Positions 33,179 to 42,860 of a stretch of 50,457 bases of DNA are shown one piece after another. The notes under the pieces are model-generated. The model was not told the DNA's origin, made no database searches, and saw nothing but the letters and a program-made list of their open reading frames with translations. The first letter of the stretch is position 1. Each line of letters begins with the position of its first letter. The position numbers and the translations under genes are program-made. Source of the DNA: a virus; the IMG/VR virus record IMGVR_UViG_3300032523_000861, positions 1 through 50,457 of that record, one strand, 5' to 3'.

Positions 33179-33209
33179 AAATATACGAAAAAAAGTTTAG
33201 AATTCAAAA
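33179..33209 (-). promoter_or_regulatory. Bacteroidota-type promoter overlapping the end of DNA polymerase
   Basis: TTTG (33206-33209), 19-base spacer ending TTCG, and TATATTTG (33179-33186) on the minus strand. The -33 box is inside the polymerase coding sequence. It drives the 106-residue gene, dut and the clamp-loader genes. Confidence 0.65.
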
Positions 33210-35749
33210 AACTTTTTTGCGTTTTGAGAATCAGCGGATGCTATTTCCCATTTTAGAGCGTTATAGAAATCAGTTAATTTGTTTTCCAACTCCGCTTTAT
33301 AAATTCCATCCCTATCAACATATTGATTGATAAAATCTAAAATTTCGATTGGGTCATTATAATCTCTAAATGCCACAGTTTCTATCCCCAATGGATTACT
33401 TTTAAGATATACCCATTTAACCTTTTCACCGTCTTTAATTGGTTCGTATTTAAACGGACATTCAAAGAATTTGAGTAATCGGTTATATGTAATACCGGCC
33501 TTAACGTGAGCAGGTGTTCCTTTTTGAAAAGTAGCAATAGCTAACCCACTATCTTTTCTCCACTTACCTTTATCGTATTTACTTAATTCTTTAATAGCTC
33601 CACCTTTGGCGATTTTATTAATACGAAGATTAGGTAAACTCTTTTTAAATTCTAAAAGTGATTCATTTATTTCTTCGTTTGTTTTACCCATTAAGATATC
33701 TTTCAACATCTTAGCCATAAAGTCCTGAAATGCTTTGGGGAATGATGAACGTACTACGTCTAATCCCTTTACATCCAACTTATCACAAGGAATACCATTC
33801 TTTAAAATCATCCATTGAGCGTATCTTTTCTTTGCTACCCAAAATCCCGCTTTACTGATGTATTCTTTCTTAATCTCAAAACGATGTTTTTCTTTTGGAA
33901 TACAAAAAAATCTTTCAGCTAACAAATTGTAGAATGAATTTAAAAACAATTGTGTTTCATCTGCAATGGTATTAACTTCTGCAGCCATTCTATTTTGGTC
34001 AAAGGTTTTGTACTCAGGAAATCTATGTTTTACTAACGGCTCTGCCATCATATAGATTGAATCGGTATCTATGTAAACATTATAATCATCTTTTGTACCT
34101 AACTCTTTTTGATATTTTAGATTAGCCATTTCCGCAGTTTTATTAATTACGGTTTGACCGGTAATAGTTACGGCTTCGGCGTTATCAATATCATAGAAAC
34201 GAAATGCTACAAGTCCTAATACACCATACATTGAATTCAAAAGAATCTTTTGTACTAATTGTCTTTTTGCATAAAAATCATACAATTCAGTATTACCTTC
34301 TTCTCCATATTTTTTTTCTAACTTTCTGAACTCAACTCTTTTATTAAACCAATTATCTAAGATATCTGCAATTAGTCCCGGCTTCTTTTGAGTATATAAC
34401 ACCCCATTTGCAGCTACACCTAATTGATTATCTTTGATAACTTCTTCTAATTCTTTTCTATTATATGTAAACTCTTTTGTTTTCCCAACAACGGTGTATT
34501 GTCTTTCTTCACCCCTAACCCAAGATTCAGGATCCCAATTTGAAATCTTACCAACCTTAGTTTCCGGTGAAATATTTAGGGTCATAATGATTGATGGGTA
34601 TAGGGATGTTAAATCCAAATCATAAATCCAATCATACTTACCAACAATCGGTTCTTTCACATACGCCCCAATAAACTTATCTTCACCCGCTTCCGATTGT
34701 TCGGCGAGTTTATCTTTGTGATTTTTTGGTTTATTTGGTGCTACTAATTTTTTTGTTTTAAGATACGCCAAACATGCACCTTCTAAGTATTTTGATGAAA
34801 AAATATAATCTTCATATGGAGTAAAACCGGAGTGACAAATTGCTCTACTTAATTCAATAAATTGAAGTTTTGCATCCATCGTTACAATCAGTTCTACGTC
34901 AGTAATGTTGTACTCAATAAATTTTTCTAAATCATTTTCAAATAGGTCATCCAAACTTCCTTCATATTCCAGCTTACCTCTACCCAATTCTTTTGTCGCT
35001 ATGTGATTGAGTGTATAAGAACTCTCTAACCCAAAATTATATCTTTTATATAATCCGATATAGTCCATAACACTAACACCTGCAATACTATAACGATTAC
35101 GATATGGCGACCAATATGTTTTACCTATTGAGGAAAGACGATTGGCTTGTTTTTCTCCTGCTACGTTTCTAATACGATTATAAAGATATGGAACGTCAAA
35201 GAAATCAATATTCCATCCTGTCCAAATTGTTGCATTTATACTTTCAATATAGGTAATATACGCATTTAATAATTCTCTTTCACTTTTGTAAATATGAATA
35301 TGCACATCTCTACCATCTTTTTGGAATGATTTACCATTTACTTTGCCATTTTTATCAACAACAAATACGTGATATTCTTTTGTAGCATCATCGTGTGCAG
35401 CTATTGAAGTGATTTCATTTTCTGCTTTTTCAATATTTGGTAAACCTGAATTCATTTCTACCTCAATATCAAATGTCAAAACGATGTGTCCTTTAGATGG
35501 TGTATCAGCATTATATAAATCAACCAATACCCTAGTTGTTTCGGGTACATCCGATTCGAATAATTCTTCACCACTATCTTTTTCCCATTTATCTACTTTA
35601 GTTAAACGGTCCCCATACATAGATTCATATTCTCCGTTTGGGTCTTTGATATATGCGTATTTTTTATAAGGAAACGTGCGATACCCCATCGTATCATCCC
35701 ACAAGTGAATTAAGTTCCGGTTTCTTTCAAAGAAAATATTTTGATACAT
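33197..35749 (-). CDS. 43: DNA polymerase, family B (gp43-like)
   Basis: An 850-residue replicative polymerase with proofreading. Exo I is TFDIEVE (Asp94/Glu96), Exo II WNIDFFD (Asp182), Exo III YNITDVEL (Asp284), polymerase motif A DLTSLYPSII (Asp378), motif B KILLNSMYG (Lys501-Gly509) and motif C YIDTDSIY (Asp561/Asp563). The whole protein is intact with no intein or split. It lies 8 bases after a DNA-methylase-like gene and downstream of the gp45 clamp. Confidence 0.97.
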   Translation of the reverse strand: MYQNIFFERNRNLIHLWDDTMGYRTFPYKKYAYIKDPNGEYESMYGDRLTKVDKWEKDSGEELFESDVPETTRVLVDLYNADTPSKGHIVLTFDIEVEMNSGLPNIEKAENEITSIAAHDDATKEYHVFVVDKNGKVNGKSFQKDGRDVHIHIYKSERELLNAYITYIESINATIWTGWNIDFFDVPYLYNRIRNVAGEKQANRLSSIGKTYWSPYRNRYSIAGVSVMDYIGLYKRYNFGLESSYTLNHIATKELGRGKLEYEGSLDDLFENDLEKFIEYNITDVELIVTMDAKLQFIELSRAICHSGFTPYEDYIFSSKYLEGACLAYLKTKKLVAPNKPKNHKDKLAEQSEAGEDKFIGAYVKEPIVGKYDWIYDLDLTSLYPSIIMTLNISPETKVGKISNWDPESWVRGEERQYTVVGKTKEFTYNRKELEEVIKDNQLGVAANGVLYTQKKPGLIADILDNWFNKRVEFRKLEKKYGEEGNTELYDFYAKRQLVQKILLNSMYGVLGLVAFRFYDIDNAEAVTITGQTVINKTAEMANLKYQKELGTKDDYNVYIDTDSIYMMAEPLVKHRFPEYKTFDQNRMAAEVNTIADETQLFLNSFYNLLAERFFCIPKEKHRFEIKKEYISKAGFWVAKKRYAQWMILKNGIPCDKLDVKGLDVVRSSFPKAFQDFMAKMLKDILMGKTNEEINESLLEFKKSLPNLRINKIAKGGAIKELSKYDKGKWRKDSGLAIATFQKGTPAHVKAGITYNRLLKFFECPFKYEPIKDGEKVKWVYLKSNPLGIETVAFRDYNDPIEILDFINQYVDRDGIYKAELENKLTDFYNALKWEIASADSQNAKKFFEF

Positions 35750-35757
35750 CTATTATG

Positions 35758-37329
35758 TTATGGTTTATAAAATATAAAAATTGGTTCGTATTTGTAAAAT
35801 TGTCCTTCTATTTTCATAGAATTCTTCGCTTTGGATAAATCCATTCCCGTCATAGGACTCATTGTCATTCTCAACTTACCTTTGTATTCACATCCTAATT
35901 GTGTAAGGATATCAATACTATCTTGTTCTAATGGATAAAATTTATCAGGTCCAACTTTAATATCTGCGATATTCCAACAAACGTATCTATCATTTCGTAG
36001 GTATTCAAAAATTGTTGTAAGTGTTGGTTTTAAGAAACCATCTCTCCAACTTTCATAGTTACCAAATTTCTTAAATGATTGTGAATCATCATCTGAATAT
36101 CTTTCTCTATCGAAATACGGAGGTGAAGTAAATGCGAAATCTAATTTACCCTTATACTTTTGAAATCTCGGGTCATCTGCAATAACTTCCGAACCTGTTG
36201 TAAAGAGTTCGTATGTATTCGCGTGTCCCCAAAATGGATTAGCCGCACCAGGAACTTTGTTGTTAAAAAACTCCGCAAGATATTCATAACGAGTTTTACC
36301 AATTTCTGGTATTTGGTTTTCAGTATTAGGGTCATTACCAATGTAATGTATATTTCTATCATCTAGACTCAATGCTCCTAATATTCGTCCACCCCAACCA
36401 GCTGAAGGGTCATAAATGTTAATTACATCCTGCTCCTTAATATGTTGAGTAAACCTTTGATACAAATACTTTGCAGTAAGTGGTGGAAAGTTTACAACTG
36501 CCTGTGTACCCATACCGATACGAAATGCTGCAGTTGCTTCAGGAAATATTCTTTGTCCTAATGGATATATTTTAATCTGAATAGGTTGTTTTGGAACGTC
36601 AATAAGATTATCAATGTTATCACCCCAATCCGCAGTTTTAAGTGAAGATATATTTTCATATTTTAATATGCCGGCATTATAAAGGTCTCTAACCTCTTGT
36701 GCAGTTATTGGTGGTGATGGAACTTTACTATCCGCTTGTGATAAGCAAAATCCATATCCATATTTGCTATTACCACCTACCCACGTCTCAATCCACTCTT
36801 TACCACTTTGAATATGTGAGTTATGAAATTCTGGATTATCTAAGTGCAATGTTTTAGAAAAACGATACATACCATCTTGCCTAGTCAGTCTTCTCATTTG
36901 TTTGATGAATTCTGGTAAATAGGTATCATCTGAAAATACATCGTAAATTGATGGCTTTGGTTTATCATACGCCGAACCACCTATTCCTGTTTTATACATT
37001 GCAGGAAAGAATTGGTTGACGGGTGTGGCGAATTTATTAAAGTTAAAGATGACTTCATTACCGTCATCATCTTTTTCTTCAAACTTATTTACTTTATAGG
37101 TTTGTAGTTTAGAGAACTGCTCAATCATTTCTGATTCATCAACACCAATTCTAGGTGGCGCTCCAGTCTCATTCCACTTTCTTACTGCGAGTTCTCTAAA
37201 AAATGCCACCCACTTTCCAAAATCGGTGAATGGCATTTTTAGAACTTCTTCGTATAATAAGTTTACTTCCGGTTCGTATAACCAGTCATTCTTTTCATAG
37301 AAATATTTTTTCTCGTAGTTAAAACTCAT
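35758..37329 (-). CDS. DNA methyltransferase-like protein (523 residues)
   Basis: An amino-methyltransferase-type fold in the C-terminal half: SAM motif I is IYDPSAGWGGRIL and the catalytic motif IV is FTSPPYFDRERYS (N6/N4-type [DNS]PPY). The N-terminal ~290 residues are a separate region without a recognised family, containing a KYGYGFCLSQAD segment. Its methylase part is related to the tandem pair at 38115-40555, which share the SAGWG(D/G)R and SPPYF(N/D)xERYS patterns. It sits between clamp and polymerase with a TAATG overlap to the clamp. No restriction enzyme accompanies it, so protective or replication-coupled base modification is likely. Confidence 0.8.
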   Translation of the reverse strand: MSFNYEKKYFYEKNDWLYEPEVNLLYEEVLKMPFTDFGKWVAFFRELAVRKWNETGAPPRIGVDESEMIEQFSKLQTYKVNKFEEKDDDGNEVIFNFNKFATPVNQFFPAMYKTGIGGSAYDKPKPSIYDVFSDDTYLPEFIKQMRRLTRQDGMYRFSKTLHLDNPEFHNSHIQSGKEWIETWVGGNSKYGYGFCLSQADSKVPSPPITAQEVRDLYNAGILKYENISSLKTADWGDNIDNLIDVPKQPIQIKIYPLGQRIFPEATAAFRIGMGTQAVVNFPPLTAKYLYQRFTQHIKEQDVINIYDPSAGWGGRILGALSLDDRNIHYIGNDPNTENQIPEIGKTRYEYLAEFFNNKVPGAANPFWGHANTYELFTTGSEVIADDPRFQKYKGKLDFAFTSPPYFDRERYSDDDSQSFKKFGNYESWRDGFLKPTLTTIFEYLRNDRYVCWNIADIKVGPDKFYPLEQDSIDILTQLGCEYKGKLRMTMSPMTGMDLSKAKNSMKIEGQFYKYEPIFIFYKP

Positions 37330-38048
37330 TATGCAGTTAATTGTTGTTCTACTAAGAAATATTTTGCATTGAAATCATCGATTTTGAATTCAACGTGCGA
37401 AATACCTTGTGTAGATACTTTTAATACAACGGATGTTGCCTCTTTATTAGCGGTTAAAATTTCTTTCAAATATTTTGCAGAGAAGGAAATTGGTTTAATT
37501 TCAACATCATATGCTTTATCAACTACAAATACAACTCTGTTTGAATTGATGTTTGAGTATCCTAATACAATTTTCAATTCTTTCTTTTCGGTAAGAATAG
37601 TAAATGTATCAACTTCACTTAATGCGTTTTTAGCTTTGATAAACTTATCAATAAATGCACCATCGAAATTGATATCAACATCAAACTCAGGAAGTTTTTT
37701 CAAATCTGGTACATTTGGAATAACTGCCAAATCCGCCAATTGAAATTGAACTTTTGTATTTTCACTCTTAATGAAAATATTCACCGCTTTACCTTCAATT
37801 TCTTGTGTTTCCAACTCAATATCTTCACCAACTACTGAAAGTAGTTTTGATAATGTTGACGTTGTGTACACACCTAAATCAGGTGAAGTAAATGCGAAGT
37901 TGTCTAGTTGAATCTCTCCTAATACAGTTTTGTCATCGGAAATAAAACGAGTAACTAATTTGTTATCTCCTGCTTTCCAAGCTACTGATTCTACTAATCC
38001 ACCCAAACTATACTTTTGGATAAATCTTGTTAATTTTGCTTTGTTCAT
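37329..38048 (-). CDS. 45: Sliding clamp (gp45-like)
   Basis: A 239-residue protein of the T4 gp45 processivity-factor type (T4 gp45 is 228 residues). It shows the typical alternating beta pattern (KLVTRFISDDKTVLGEIQL, TFTILTEKKELKIVLGY) with two similar halves and no catalytic motif. The identification is supported by the neighbouring polymerase and clamp-loader genes. It has its own strong promoter at 38082-38113. Confidence 0.85.
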   Translation of the reverse strand: MNKAKLTRFIQKYSLGGLVESVAWKAGDNKLVTRFISDDKTVLGEIQLDNFAFTSPDLGVYTTSTLSKLLSVVGEDIELETQEIEGKAVNIFIKSENTKVQFQLADLAVIPNVPDLKKLPEFDVDINFDGAFIDKFIKAKNALSEVDTFTILTEKKELKIVLGYSNINSNRVVFVVDKAYDVEIKPISFSAKYLKEILTANKEATSVVLKVSTQGISHVEFKIDDFNAKYFLVEQQLTA

Positions 38049-38081
38049 TTTTGTTTATGTTTAAATTTTAAATTGTGAATA

Positions 38082-38113
38082 CAAATATACGATAATTTAT
38101 TCAAATTACCAAA
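38082..38113 (-). promoter_or_regulatory. Bacteroidota-type promoter of the clamp-polymerase unit
   Basis: Minus-strand ATTTGGTAAT with TTTG at 38110-38113, 20-base spacer ending ATCG, and TATATTTG at 38082-38089. It starts right after the upstream methylase stop and lies 34 bases before the clamp ATG. Confidence 0.75.
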
Positions 38114-38114
38114 T

Positions 38115-39341
38115 CTATTTTTCCCAAATCCATATTGGTTCTCCAAATGCGTGGTTTTTGGTTTCCTCCGCCTTTTCTTTCAATTCATCCGAATAATATT
38201 CAGATACAGCCATCCCAGCACCTCCACTATTAGGTCTTTTTGTCATTTCCATACCAATACATCCTTTGTAAATTAACCCCTTAGATTGAAGGAAATCGTT
38301 CATAGAATTAACTATATCTACATATCCCTTATCCGGTGCCGAAAATACATCTGCAATATTAATTGCCAGTATTCCACCTTTTTTTAAGGTTGGTATAATT
38401 TTCTCTAAAGTTGTATGAAAGAACCCTTTGTTCCAATCATCAAACTTTTTATACCTAATCCAACTTTGAGTATCGTCAAACGAATATCTTTCGGTATTAA
38501 AATACGGTGGTGAAGTAAAGATTGTATCAAAGAAATTTTCATACTCTGAATAATCTACATCTTCCGCTGCCGCTTCCAACATCTTTGCATCTTTATCTTC
38601 TTCAAAGAACGTTTTATGTTTTTTATAAAACTCAATTTGGTTTTGATAGTTAGAGTGATTGTTACTATTCGGGTCAATGCCTAAATAAAATTTAGTTGTT
38701 TCTCCGGCAAAGAATCCAGCTAAACGGTCACCCCATCCTGCTGAAAAATCCATTACATTTTGACTTTGGAACTTATCGTAGAATGCTTTTGCTATGACCG
38801 GCTTAAATTGTGATGCTACATACTTTCTCAATGTTGTTGCCATCTTTAAAGTTTCCATAGTAACATCCAATAGCATTTTATCCAAAGTAAAATACGCTCT
38901 TACAATCGTTTTAATACCATCAACTGTCTGCCATGTCTTCCAACCCGATGGTGTTCTAACCCAATCAACCTTCCAACGATTTTCAATGTGGAAAGGATTT
39001 GATGCATTATTACCAACGTTTGTTCTTCTAAAATAATATTCAGAACCATCGTATGTTAATGGATACGTTGATACTCTTTCATTACGAGGAAACCATTTAC
39101 CCTCAACTAATATATCAGGCCACCAAGTACCTTTTAATTTTTTATACGCATCCAAAGTTTGTTCTTCGGTGATATTTGGAATTGGTGGTGGATATGTGTG
39201 AAGGACTTCTGAAAGTTCATCTACAATTTCTTCTTTAGTATAAGTTTGAAGAATAGTTTGCCATTCGTCTTTTTCAATACGAATATACGGTTCCATTCCA
39301 TAAAACTTTTTAAAGTATTCTTTTATTATAATTTTTTCCAT
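38115..39341 (-). CDS. DNA methyltransferase-like protein, tandem paralogue 1
   Basis: The likely start is the ATG at 39341 (MEKIIIKEYF); a GTG at 39347 adds two residues. The ~408-residue product has an N-terminal domain of ~190 residues (with WFPRNERVS and NRWKVDW), motif I MDFSAGWGDRLAGFF with LGIDPN, and motif IV FTSPPYFNTERYSFDDTQSW. LKKGGILAINIADV follows. It is a close paralogue of the gene just upstream, including a ~38-base DNA identity around 38,705-38,745. A SAM-dependent N4/N6 base methylase or related base modifier is likely. Confidence 0.8.
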   Translation of the reverse strand: MEKIIIKEYFKKFYGMEPYIRIEKDEWQTILQTYTKEEIVDELSEVLHTYPPPIPNITEEQTLDAYKKLKGTWWPDILVEGKWFPRNERVSTYPLTYDGSEYYFRRTNVGNNASNPFHIENRWKVDWVRTPSGWKTWQTVDGIKTIVRAYFTLDKMLLDVTMETLKMATTLRKYVASQFKPVIAKAFYDKFQSQNVMDFSAGWGDRLAGFFAGETTKFYLGIDPNSNNHSNYQNQIEFYKKHKTFFEEDKDAKMLEAAAEDVDYSEYENFFDTIFTSPPYFNTERYSFDDTQSWIRYKKFDDWNKGFFHTTLEKIIPTLKKGGILAINIADVFSAPDKGYVDIVNSMNDFLQSKGLIYKGCIGMEMTKRPNSGGAGMAVSEYYSDELKEKAEETKNHAFGEPIWIWEK

Positions 39342-40555
39342 ATCCACACAGGTTCACAGAAAGTTTTGTCTGCCGCTTCTCTTGCTTTTTCTAAAGCTTC
39401 TTCGGTATATCTACCTTCATCTCCCTCAATAATAGAATTTGCACCAGCACTACCTGGTCTCTTTGCCATTTCCATTCCCAGACATCCTTCGTATTCCGCA
39501 CCTAATGTTTGAATAAAATCATTCATTGGATTACATATCTCTTTATAACCTTTACCATCACCTTTAGATGCTGCATATACATCTGCGATATTGATTGCAA
39601 GAATACCACCTTTTTTTAAAGTAGGCCAAACGTTTGCAATTGTTTTATGAAGAAACAATTTATTCCACGCATCAATATTTTTATATCTAACCCAACTTTG
39701 AGTATCATCGTAAGAATATCTCTCTACGTTGAAATAAGGAGGTGAACTGAATATAATATCAAAGTGATTTTCATATTGAGTTAAATCAGCATCTTCTGCT
39801 GGTGAAATTATAAAATCTGCTTTCTTTTCAGTTTCAAAAAATGAATTGTGTTTTGTATAAAATTCAGCTTGAGTATGATATATTGGATGGTTTTCTACCC
39901 TAGGGTCTATACCTACATAATGTTCTCCATTCTCAGATGCAAAGAATCCAGCTAAACGGTCACCCCATCCTGCTGATATATCTAGTACATTTTTACATTC
40001 ATAGAAATCATACAATACTTTTGCAGCATTTGGTTTAAATTGAGAACAAATATATTTTCTCAAACTCAAACAAACTCTTAAAGAATTTCTATTTACTTCA
40101 TCAAATTTAAGAGTATATAATCCACCCATTAAGGTTGTCATAAATTCTTTACTAGCCCAAGTTCTTTTTGGTCCAGGTGAAACGGTGCCATCAACACTCC
40201 AACGATTTGATTGTTGGAAATGGTTTGATGCATCATTACCGGTATTTAACCTACGAATATATTGTGGTTTACCCTGAAAATCTAATGAATATCTAAATTC
40301 CGATGCTTTTCGTGGAAACCATTCACCTTCAGTAAATAAGTTATTCCAACGAATGCCTTTTAACGCCAAATATTCTTTCCTAGCTTCATCTTCACTTATT
40401 TCCGCATAAGGAAGTTCGTAAGTCATAGCCACATCTGCCAATGATTCTTTTACATCATTAATTTCAAATGTTGTTTTTATATGCGTCCATTCTTTCGCAT
40501 TAATGTGAAGATATGGTTTCATATCTTTAAACTTATCAAAATAATTTATATACAT
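39326..40555 (-). CDS. DNA methyltransferase-like protein, tandem paralogue 2
   Basis: A 409-residue paralogue of the adjacent gene with the same order: N-terminal domain (WFPRKASEF, NRWSVDG), motif I LDISAGWGDRLAGFF with VGIDPR, motif IV FSSPPYFNVERYSYDDTQSW and an identical LKKGGILAINIADV. Motif IV begins SSPPYF instead of TSPPYF. It overlaps the GNAT gene by 10 bases and the next methylase by 16, so the three are translated together. Confidence 0.8.
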   Translation of the reverse strand: MYINYFDKFKDMKPYLHINAKEWTHIKTTFEINDVKESLADVAMTYELPYAEISEDEARKEYLALKGIRWNNLFTEGEWFPRKASEFRYSLDFQGKPQYIRRLNTGNDASNHFQQSNRWSVDGTVSPGPKRTWASKEFMTTLMGGLYTLKFDEVNRNSLRVCLSLRKYICSQFKPNAAKVLYDFYECKNVLDISAGWGDRLAGFFASENGEHYVGIDPRVENHPIYHTQAEFYTKHNSFFETEKKADFIISPAEDADLTQYENHFDIIFSSPPYFNVERYSYDDTQSWVRYKNIDAWNKLFLHKTIANVWPTLKKGGILAINIADVYAASKGDGKGYKEICNPMNDFIQTLGAEYEGCLGMEMAKRPGSAGANSIIEGDEGRYTEEALEKAREAADKTFCEPVWIWKKL

Positions 40556-41103
40556 ACGTTGTTGATATTTTTATTAGCATCTAATTTTAATTTGTAAACT
40601 CCTCCAGGTATTTTACCATCGGTTTTACTTGTCCAAAATAAATCACCTTCTCTAACAAACCCAAATCGTTCATAAAAACGAATTGCATTTTGATTTTCAT
40701 CTCTAACAGTTAACCATATATTTTCAGTATGTCTAGATTTACAATGTTCTCGAAATAAAGATAATGTCATTACTGCTGCAGTTTTATTAGATTGATTACT
40801 TGCTATTTGGTGTATAATGAAATCGCCTTTCTTTTTATAAATGGGAGCTGGTTTGTGTGGAATGCTTAGTACCTTTTTTACAGCATTTTTAGAAATTTTT
40901 CCATTTGATTTGTATCTACTAAATGTAATAAATACTCCATCCTGAAGTACTAAGTTTCCTTTTAAAATATATTTTTCTAATTTAAACCCTTGTTCATATA
41001 AGTGAGGGAATATTTCAGGATATAAGTCAATGATAGCCGAAGTTTGATTGATAGATTCTATCATTTCGGTTGTGCCCTTATCGGCTTTTACAAAGTTAAG
41101 CAT
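40546..41103 (-). CDS. GNAT acetyltransferase
   Basis: With the ATG at 41101-41103 the product has 185 residues. The C-terminal half carries the GNAT signature: KTAAVMTLSLFREH, IWLTVRDENQNAIRFYERFGF. FIIHQIASN fits the central strand beta-4. The first ~60 residues are an extra helical region. It sits between asparagine synthetase and the methylase pair with overlaps on both sides. Mom of phage Mu is also a GNAT-fold enzyme that modifies DNA adenine, so a DNA-modifying role is possible, but protein or small-molecule acylation is equally open. Confidence 0.8.
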   Translation of the reverse strand: MLNFVKADKGTTEMIESINQTSAIIDLYPEIFPHLYEQGFKLEKYILKGNLVLQDGVFITFSRYKSNGKISKNAVKKVLSIPHKPAPIYKKKGDFIIHQIASNQSNKTAAVMTLSLFREHCKSRHTENIWLTVRDENQNAIRFYERFGFVREGDLFWTSKTDGKIPGGVYKLKLDANKNINNVCI

Positions 41104-42553
41104 ATTCAAAGAATTTATTTTGATTTATTTGGTCTTTATACAAATATAAGGATTTTAATTGAGATTTCAAAGTCTCTTTTTTCGCTTGCATCATATCACC
41201 GGTTCTACATCCTTTCGCAAAGTAAACTTTAGGTCTATATAATAGTTCATCGGAAATTTCTCCTTTAAATGCAGCTCTTAATAATGGTTTCATATGTCCA
41301 CCTTCTTTCTGATACAATGGTGGTATATTTAATGTGTATTCTACAAATGGTCTCCAACTATATGGTGTACGAACTTCAACAGTCCCACCCCACATAATGG
41401 ATTGGTTAGTAGTTAAGAAGTTTGTTTTATGAACATCCTCTACTAACTTTCTTCTTGCTTTATCATAATCTTCCGGTCTCCAATGAAATGCTTGAATATG
41501 ACCATAACTTCCCCAAATCTCATCCGATAGGTCTCCACTAAATACAACTTTGAATCCTAACTCATTTATTTTTTTAGATAAAGCTATTTGAGCAATTGCA
41601 CTACCAACATTTTGCCATCTCGCTTGCTCAATTACATAGAGTGTTTCATCAACAGCATCTTCAACATCTTTTTCAGTTAAAATAATTTCATGTAGTTTTA
41701 CGCCAAATTCTTTTGCAGCAATTCTGGCATATTTTATATCATCATTCTTAGTATCTCCATCTCCCATTGAAACCACAAATGCTTCGATATTAGGGTTTAT
41801 CTTTGAAAGTATGTAAGTTGTTATCACCGAATCAATACCCCCACTTAAAATGGTGCAGATTGGAACGTCAGATACCATCTTTACTTTAACCGCTTCTTCC
41901 AACATTTTTCTAATATTGTTAACGATAGTTTCTCTATCATCATTTATTATTTCGTTTGGAAGTTTATAATAAGTTACCGTTTTATGTTCTAATGTTTTGT
42001 AATTATATTCTAAGTAAGTGCCAGGATAAATTGCTTTTACTTGTTTTTCGTAGAGGTCTGAAATAGGCAATCCTTTCTTTTCTGAGCAAAATACCAATTT
42101 ACCATCGTTATCAATTGCATACCACAAAGGTAGTTCACCAACGTAATCCTTAACAATAAGTAATTTGTCGATTTTAGTGTCAACTATTGCAAATGAAAAC
42201 ATCCCATCTAACTCTTTAAAAACATCTACACCAAATTGTTCATATCCATTGAGGATAATTTCAGTATCAGATTTTGTTCGGAATGGTATTGTGATTTTTT
42301 CTTTTAATTCTTTTGTATAAGTACTATCCCACAACTCACCGTTATAAATTAAGCAAATGGTTTTGTCACCATTCCACATTGGTTGGTTTGCAGTATCAGA
42401 AAGGTCCTGAATAGATAGACGATTATGCCCCACATAAAGATTATTAATCTTTTCAACTGCGGAAGCATTTCTACCTCTATGAATTATTTTTTGTAAATGG
42501 GTATGAGTTTGCTTCTTAGAAGTAAACCAATTGCCGCCTATTATTCCACACAT
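41096..42553 (-). CDS. asnB: Asparagine synthetase (glutamine-hydrolysing)
   Basis: A 485-residue class II amidotransferase. The catalytic Cys2 follows the initiator Met (MCGIIGG), which fixes the start. HRGRNASAV, YNGELWD and KSDTEIIL complete the glutaminase domain; SGGIDSVITTYIL is the ATP-binding PP-loop of the synthetase domain. It makes asparagine (or amidates another acid) from glutamine, aspartate and ATP. The promoter -7 box lies only 4 bases before the ATG, so the mRNA may be leaderless. It is shorter than bacterial AsnB (~550 residues). Confidence 0.9.
   Translation of the reverse strand: MCGIIGGNWFTSKKQTHTHLQKIIHRGRNASAVEKINNLYVGHNRLSIQDLSDTANQPMWNGDKTICLIYNGELWDSTYTKELKEKITIPFRTKSDTEIILNGYEQFGVDVFKELDGMFSFAIVDTKIDKLLIVKDYVGELPLWYAIDNDGKLVFCSEKKGLPISDLYEKQVKAIYPGTYLEYNYKTLEHKTVTYYKLPNEIINDDRETIVNNIRKMLEEAVKVKMVSDVPICTILSGGIDSVITTYILSKINPNIEAFVVSMGDGDTKNDDIKYARIAAKEFGVKLHEIILTEKDVEDAVDETLYVIEQARWQNVGSAIAQIALSKKINELGFKVVFSGDLSDEIWGSYGHIQAFHWRPEDYDKARRKLVEDVHKTNFLTTNQSIMWGGTVEVRTPYSWRPFVEYTLNIPPLYQKEGGHMKPLLRAAFKGEISDELLYRPKVYFAKGCRTGDMMQAKKETLKSQLKSLYLYKDQINQNKFFEYA
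41141..41171 (-). promoter_or_regulatory. Candidate internal promoter in asnB before the GNAT/methylase genes
   Basis: TTTG (41168-41171), 19-base spacer and TATATTTG (41141-41148) on the minus strand, inside the asnB 3' end and 38 bases before the GNAT ATG. The spacer lacks the TCG seen in intergenic promoters. Confidence 0.4.
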
Positions 42554-42590: not shown

Positions 42591-42860
42591 TTATTTTAAC
42601 CCCTCATTAATAGCATTTACATACGCCATCTTAGATGATAACCCTTGAAATCTTTCAACAAGTACACCATCTCTTTCAATTATTACTACTGGAATTGATG
42701 TCACATTATATTGTTGCGATTCTTCGGGTGAATTATCAACATCATATTCTATGAATGTTACTTTATCTGCGAAATCATTTTTCAATCCTTCTAATACCGG
42801 TCCTAATGCTCTACAAGGACCACACCATTTTGCTCCAAATTTTTTAACTACTACGCTCAT
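42591..42860 (-). CDS. trxA: Thioredoxin
   Basis: An 89-residue thioredoxin with the classic WCGPC active site (residues 12-16) and the cis-proline loop TSIPVVII. It is shorter than E. coli thioredoxin (108 residues), starting directly at beta-1. It probably reduces the C-terminal cysteines of the ribonucleotide reductase encoded two genes upstream. It overlaps the DUF5522-like gene by 17 bases. Confidence 0.93.
   Translation of the reverse strand: MSVVVKKFGAKWCGPCRALGPVLEGLKNDFADKVTFIEYDVDNSPEESQQYNVTSIPVVIIERDGVLVERFQGLSSKMAYVNAINEGLK

Follow-up and report, generated by a model that had tools for sequence, protein, structure and literature searches.

The IMG/VR virus record IMGVR_UViG_3300032523_000861 (positions 1 to 50,457, a stretch of 50,457 bases hereafter called the window) belongs to a large aquatic phage of T4-like type and contains a T4-like replication cluster on its minus strand. 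Embedded in this cluster are genes for an asparagine-synthetase-like amidotransferase (AsnB), a GNAT-fold acyltransferase (GNAT) and a methylase (MT2), which we tentatively read as a cassette that tailors phage DNA bases. An original prediction, made from the letters and translated reading frames, described asnB, GNAT and two overlapping methylases, with a third methylase between the sliding clamp and DNA polymerase B (PolB); coordinates and family searches confirmed this layout. The open reading frames (ORFs) concerned are all encoded on the minus strand:

41096..42553, minus strand: AsnB-like glutamine-dependent amidotransferase, 485 aa; N-terminal nucleophile (Ntn) glutaminase (MCGI) and PP-loop synthetase domain (SGGIDS); aspartate site altered to QNxG and SGDLSDE
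40546..41109, minus strand: GNAT-fold acyltransferase, 187 aa; TTG start with an alternative ATG two codons in; RimI/Naa/PaiA-like fold; exchangeable allele
39326..40555, minus strand: MT2, class-I S-adenosylmethionine (SAM) methyltransferase, 409 aa; DISAGWGDR and SPPYF motifs; inherited together with AsnB-GNAT
38115..39347, minus strand: MT1, 410 aa; paralogue of MT2 (49% identity), FTSPPYF motif; a frequent neighbour, separable from AsnB-GNAT
37329..38048, minus strand: sliding clamp; weak PCNA/PCNA_C match, synteny
35758..37329, minus strand: MT3, 523 aa; SPPYF methylase of more distant relationship, encoded between clamp and PolB; an orphan, separable
33197..35749, minus strand: DNA polymerase family B (PolB); DNA_pol_B match
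42591..42860, minus strand: thioredoxin; in one of the cassette's slots, normally its upstream neighbour

The gene order asnB-GNAT-MT2-MT1, followed by clamp, MT3 and PolB, is compact, with overlaps of 14 nt (AsnB/GNAT), 10 nt (GNAT/MT2), 22 nt (MT2/MT1) and 1 nt (clamp/MT3) and a gap of 66 nt between MT1 and the clamp. Searches against Pfam, PHROGs and NCBIfam were concordant and affiliated AsnB with asparagine synthase plus a glutamine amidotransferase (GATase) domain, GNAT with Acetyltransf_1 and the methylases with PF01555. No restriction endonuclease was seen among the ORFs searched, which made up only part of the window's ORFs; the predicted lack of a restriction enzyme holds to that extent.

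Relatives of the methylases, AsnB and GNAT were fetched from IMG/VR contigs and their gene order was mapped. AsnB orthologues, defined by at least 60% identity, comprised 54 distinct proteins. GNAT lies directly downstream of AsnB in all 51 orthologues with enough flanking sequence to be testable. An SPPYF methylase follows within 800 nt downstream of AsnB in 34 of 44 loci; when both sides are considered up to 3 kb, 42 of 43 loci have one. The AsnB-GNAT block occupies at least three different slots (between thioredoxin and clamp, between the large and small clamp-loader genes, and between thioredoxin and PolB), and the linkage of the trio is therefore more than the vertical inheritance of one gene order. 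Among 12 relatives, every gene compared had a ratio of nonsynonymous to synonymous substitution rates (dN/dS) well below 1, indicative of purifying selection. Judged from the strict adjacency and these low ratios, the AsnB-GNAT arrangement is not a product of chance. That the linkage holds from slot to slot is the chief evidence for AsnB-GNAT-MT2 as one functional unit, and the gene maps identify these three genes as the conserved core, with MT1 and MT3 varying independently. Hence, of the single set of asnB, GNAT and three methylases originally proposed, the trio stands, and MT1 and MT3, widely found without AsnB and GNAT, are not supported as members. A co-inherited module embedded in the replisome, in line with the proposal, is supported.

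The window AsnB retains the N-terminal cysteine, the HRG and NGE segments of the glutaminase and the SGGIDS and SDE segments of the synthetase domain. Residues S362, G363, S366, D367 and E368 of human asparagine synthetase (ASNS) are retained, whereas T336, T337, R339, E364, G365, D400 and R403 correspond to Q, N, G, D, L, N and T. These seven residues of the aspartate site are identical between E. coli AS-B and human ASNS. T336, T337 and R339 bind aspartate and ATP (PMC5775275), the ASNS variants E364A and E364Q are inactive (PMC6748925), and roles in the aspartate site have been described for G365, D400 and R403 (PMC6748925, PMC11615228). The resulting signature, QNxG plus SGDLSDE, is present in 54 of 54 distinct orthologues. 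Because these seven conserved positions are replaced, AsnB probably amidates something other than aspartate, although it passes the NCBIfam cut-off for asparagine synthase. If the reading favoured below is right, such phage genes should not be annotated as asparagine-making auxiliary metabolic genes. Cellular relatives are only about 25–36% identical and stem mostly from metagenome-assembled genomes of Campylobacterota.

All three methylases carry intact SAM-binding and (S/D/N)PP(Y/F) motifs. MT1 scores 27.8 bits against PF01555 (N6_N4_Mtase), above the cut-off of 26.7; MT2 (23.6) and MT3 (16.4) score below it. Among 50 MT1/MT2 sequences the S-P-P-Y-F and D-x-S-x-G-W-G-D-R motifs and further positions are invariant. 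None of the three belongs to the C5-methyltransferase family with its SPPC motif; all carry SPPYF and match PF01555. A structural model of MT2 (predicted local distance difference test, pLDDT, 86.6) was closest to the exocyclic-amine N2-methylguanosine (m2G) tRNA methylases Trm11/TrmN/Trm14 (Z 15.8), with O-methyltransferases tied. Foldseek and VIA did not separate DNA, tRNA and small-molecule methylases, and a PDB sequence search with MT2 returned chance matches only. The modelled fold thus does not settle whether the substrate is DNA, RNA or another molecule, and nothing in the MT2 data tells a methyl from another SAM-derived group. In many contigs the neighbour of MT3 is the clamp, PolB or both. 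Most probably, MT1 and MT3 are orphan enzymes in their own right within the cluster that carry out ordinary N4-methylcytosine (m4C) or N6-methyladenine (m6A) methylation.

The GNAT family matched PF00583 in 24 of 24 aligned members, and an AlphaFold model of the window protein (pLDDT 88.8) resembles RimI, Naa50/60 and PaiA-type acetyltransferases. The original prediction had pointed to Mom of phage Mu; the Pfam Mom family (PF25680) matched none of the 24 members, and for the window GNAT no match to it was listed at E up to 1. The protein is therefore not a Mom protein, and the analogy does not extend to homology. A genome search with the same Mom model gave no match anywhere, controls included, and is uninformative. 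With the patterns used, no bacterial relatives of GNAT were found, and tblastn gave no match in isolate phages. A comparison with locus L224 (GNAT at L224:4103-4627, against window:40546-41109) revealed divergence inside an otherwise nearly identical operon: AsnB is 99% identical (synonymous divergence, dS, 0.09) and MT2 96% (dS 0.22), whereas GNAT is 66% identical (dS 1.65). This contrast in dS indicates that the GNAT allele was replaced by recombination within the operon. Such a swap would be accounted for if the acyl donor, the acceptor or the host target changes.

Taken together, we tentatively favour the reading that AsnB, GNAT and MT2 are inherited as one tailoring cassette, by which the bases of phage DNA would receive more than a methyl group. 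The sequences show an AsnB with an intact-looking glutaminase and AMP-forming PP-loop site, a GNAT with an acyltransferase fold and an MT2 with intact class-I methyltransferase motifs of the exocyclic-amine (SPPY) type; the DNA target and the chemistry are inferred. In such a pathway, an exocyclic nitrogen of a DNA base would be given a group by MT2 or by another enzyme of host or phage. A carboxylate of this adduct, or of its precursor, would be adenylated by AsnB and turned into a carboxamide with ammonia drawn from glutamine, GNAT would acylate an amine of the same adduct, and the outcome would be bulky DNA resistant to host nucleases. A more specific version is a long shot: MT2 would deliver a carboxylated SAM-derived group (carboxymethyl from host-made carboxy-SAM, Cx-SAM, or 3-amino-3-carboxypropyl) to the exocyclic nitrogen, AsnB would amidate its carboxylate and GNAT acylate its amine, giving the first N4/N6 carboxyalkyl DNA hypermodification. 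If the general reading is true, the recently discovered carboxylate/amide branch of phage DNA hypermodification would extend from cytosine C5 to exocyclic-amine-type methylases, with an acyltransferase in addition, in many aquatic T4-like phages; the gene set is defined by three overlapping genes and one residue signature.

Several observations weigh against the cassette as a DNA-tailoring pathway. The modified base is predicted from genes alone, and no source of a base-linked carboxylate was identified. CmoA (TIGR00740) was found in none of 19 related records including the window, which reach 274 kb and may be fragments; a host CmoA could still act. Controls for this search, E. coli among them, gave matches, one over the cut-off. 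The only thymidylate synthases found were a canonical copy in four records and the divergent ThyA-like copy in record G004. AsnB scores 281.1 bits against the NCBIfam asparagine synthase TIGR01536, above the equivalog cut-off of 267.1, and the nearest folds of GNAT are enzymes acetylating proteins or small amines. About 30 marine sequences of MT1/MT2 (30 MT2 sequences in the tree) have no AsnB or GNAT nearby and lie mostly between clamp and clamp-loader genes; the methylase therefore has a function of its own. Lastly, genes of compact phage operons can be linked through being transferred together, with no common pathway behind them.

The best-surviving alternative separates the two activities: MT1, MT2 and MT3 would be plain orphan m4C/m6A methylases for protection against restriction, and AsnB-GNAT a small-molecule module in the same operon, acting for example on a free amino-acid-like metabolite. 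We regard this as possible, if doubtful. It accords with the PF01555 affiliation and SPPY motifs, with the wide occurrence of all three methylases without AsnB-GNAT, and with four loci (L023, L246, L249 and L358) in which the next methylase is at least 2 kb away from AsnB-GNAT. Alternative cassettes in the same slot encode pyridoxal phosphate (PLP) enzymes and 2-hydroxyacid dehydrogenases of the sort typical for the metabolism of small molecules. On the other hand, an SPPYF methylase stays within 3 kb of AsnB-GNAT in 42 of 43 loci despite rearrangement; distant GNATs also adjoin DNA methylases, and DNA-modifying AsnB-like enzymes are now known (PMC12783734).

A takeover of the host, in which GNAT acetylates a host protein (like Rac of phiKMV on RNA polymerase, or RimI on ribosomal proteins) while AsnB serves as an auxiliary metabolic gene, appears unlikely. 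The RimI/Naa50/PaiA-like fold fits it, a Rac-like action has been predicted for GNATs of jumbo phages (PMC7824862), and the recombination of GNAT alleles (dS 1.65 against 0.09–0.22 in L224) might follow a changing host target; however, an unrelated protein target leaves unexplained the strict one-to-one coupling of GNAT with an AsnB lacking the aspartate site. Action of AsnB-GNAT on a nucleotide precursor before polymerisation is improbable, for the ribonucleotide reductase and thioredoxin directly upstream and the dUTPase downstream of PolB, which together with a ThyA-like protein in a related AsnB' cassette speak for it, are ordinary T4-like genes, and the AsnB-GNAT unit itself holds no ThyA homologue or kinase. 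The remaining weight falls on host-protein acetylation, nucleotide-level chemistry or something else.

The base-modification reading as first proposed is thus partly supported: the replisome module, the rebuilt aspartate site, the published precedent (PMC12783734) and the CmoA-CmoX genes in the S-CRM01 replication cluster speak for it, whereas homology to Mom, membership of MT1 and MT3 in the pathway and coupling of the modification to replication fork progress are not supported.

The freshwater MT2 clade holding the window has 41 sequences; where AsnB-GNAT is missing from its loci, MT2 often has different enzyme genes as neighbours. At three loci (L025:10465-13497, L029:4922-7957 and L102:10349-13381), an AsnB' with 34% identity, within the replication cluster, is flanked by a divergent thymidylate-synthase-like (ThyA-like) protein and a PLP fold-type-II enzyme, a set that looks like another hypermodification or metabolic cassette. 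At L117:403-3615, thioredoxin and MT2 bracket an AsnB'' (41% identical) and, after it, a D-2-hydroxyacid dehydrogenase and a PLP enzyme; a third alternative is a PLP protein alone. These cassettes can be read as exchangeable tailoring chemistry beside one methylase; exchangeable metabolic genes would give the same picture.

Distant relatives of GNAT (29–34%), with no AsnB beside them, are encoded next to DNA methylases, of the SPPYF type or other, and next to replication genes. At L282:3723-5931, such a GNAT lies beside an SPPYF methylase and an Asp/Asn beta-hydroxylase-like 2-oxoglutarate (2OG) enzyme (PF05118), between PolB and UvsX, and L280, L281, L283 and L287-289 share this gene order. 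At L272:3778-5381 and L284:4860-6486, the distant GNAT is located beside a 2OG-hydroxylase-domain protein (PF05118) near a UvsX or exonuclease gene. These arrangements are possibly an AsnB-free version of the cassette. In L277 (3484-5421, 6609-10727), a distant GNAT adjoins a DNA methylase of 1373 aa with intein splicing domains and LAGLIDADG/NUMOD3 motifs; the clamp-loader ORF of that locus also looks intein-bearing by eye. At L285:5607-8189, an S-adenosylmethionine decarboxylase gene overlaps a GNAT of this family, and a true Mom protein (PF25680, E 4e-51) is encoded about 1 kb downstream.

Elsewhere in the window, two glycosyltransferases (phrog_2170; window:26855-29540) follow closely after the clamp-loader/exonuclease block, a position kept in many relatives. 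A tail-fibre gene with collagen-like matches (window:24042-26231) stands out by a local rise in G+C to 0.41, its surroundings being at about 0.32. Judged by PolB (48% identity), the nearest isolated phage is Microcystis phage Mel-JY01, which carries an S-adenosylmethionine synthase gene in its clamp-loader gene run (L162:20590-21792).

Among the papers searched, none described this AsnB-GNAT-methyltransferase set, and its parts were compared with known systems. The orphan N4/N6 phage methylases (PF01555, phrog_12517) of Vibrio phage 2.058.O, Bacteroides phage DAC16 and Staphylococcus phage Alsa share a homologous core (27–31% identity over the matched stretch), and the gene in 2.058.O likewise lies among recombination and replication genes. 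The matches span the methylase core only, so the N-terminal regions differ from those of the window methylases, and here up to three paralogues occur per phage, one of them tied to AsnB-GNAT. Mom of phage Mu, which modifies adenine at N6, is comparable as a GNAT-fold enzyme, a class proposed here for DNA modification; in contrast to Mom, the window GNAT falls outside the Pfam family and its listed fold matches are RimI/Naa-like. Asparagine synthetase B (AsnB/ASNS) shares domain architecture, glutaminase residues, PP-loop and overall hidden Markov model score, and differs in the seven aspartate-site residues that the E. coli and human enzymes have in common.

Among characterised systems, CmoA/CmoX/CmoY is the nearest precedent. 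In Synechococcus phage S-B43, CmoA and CmoX make 5-carboxymethylcytosine and the asparagine-synthetase homologue CmoY ligates glycine to the modified base, amidating the carboxylate (Yang et al. 2025, PMC12783734). Some relatives of CmoY bear a glutaminase domain (PMC12783734). The amidotransferase-type base chemistry of the original prediction has thereby found its precedent, as asparagine-synthetase homologues do amidate carboxylated DNA bases (PMC12783734). Both systems place an asparagine-synthetase homologue beside a DNA methyltransferase-fold enzyme in a phage gene set. The best full-length isolate match of the window AsnB (30%) is a glutaminase-type CmoY homologue of Streptomyces phage TurkishDelight, encoded between a C5-methyltransferase and a CmoA-like gene. 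A T4-like replication cluster can also house the system: the freshwater Synechococcus cyanophage S-CRM01 (L292:6962-8799) carries a CmoA-like gene and a DNA-cytosine methyltransferase (CmoX) between its clamp-loader genes and PolB, the same kind of cluster as in the window, with CmoY not directly adjacent. S-B43, TurkishDelight and S-CRM01 thus offer a workable model by analogy: a base-modification set, embedded in the replisome, that includes an amide ligase of AsnB-like type.

Of the features of a CmoY-like amide ligase, the window AsnB has the fold and architecture, and its aspartate site is lost. Its synthetase domain is about 28% identical to the TurkishDelight homologue and 16% to CmoY of S-B43, with a QNxG/SGDLSDE signature of its own; an AsnB tree including S-B43 CmoY was unreliable because of long branches. 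The window methylases are of the SPPYF (N4/N6) type rather than SPPC C5-methyltransferases, and GNAT always follows AsnB in the window-type set. CmoA is absent from the 19 related records, the methylases lack the C5 motif, GNAT comes in addition and AsnB bears another signature; the gene content thus indicates that the AsnB-GNAT-MT2 set is not a member of the CmoA/CmoX/CmoY system. Yang et al. state that a carboxymethyltransferase for N6 or N4 linked with CmoA did not emerge from a preliminary search (PMC12783734); the window set would fill a neighbouring gap only if a carboxylated group is indeed transferred.

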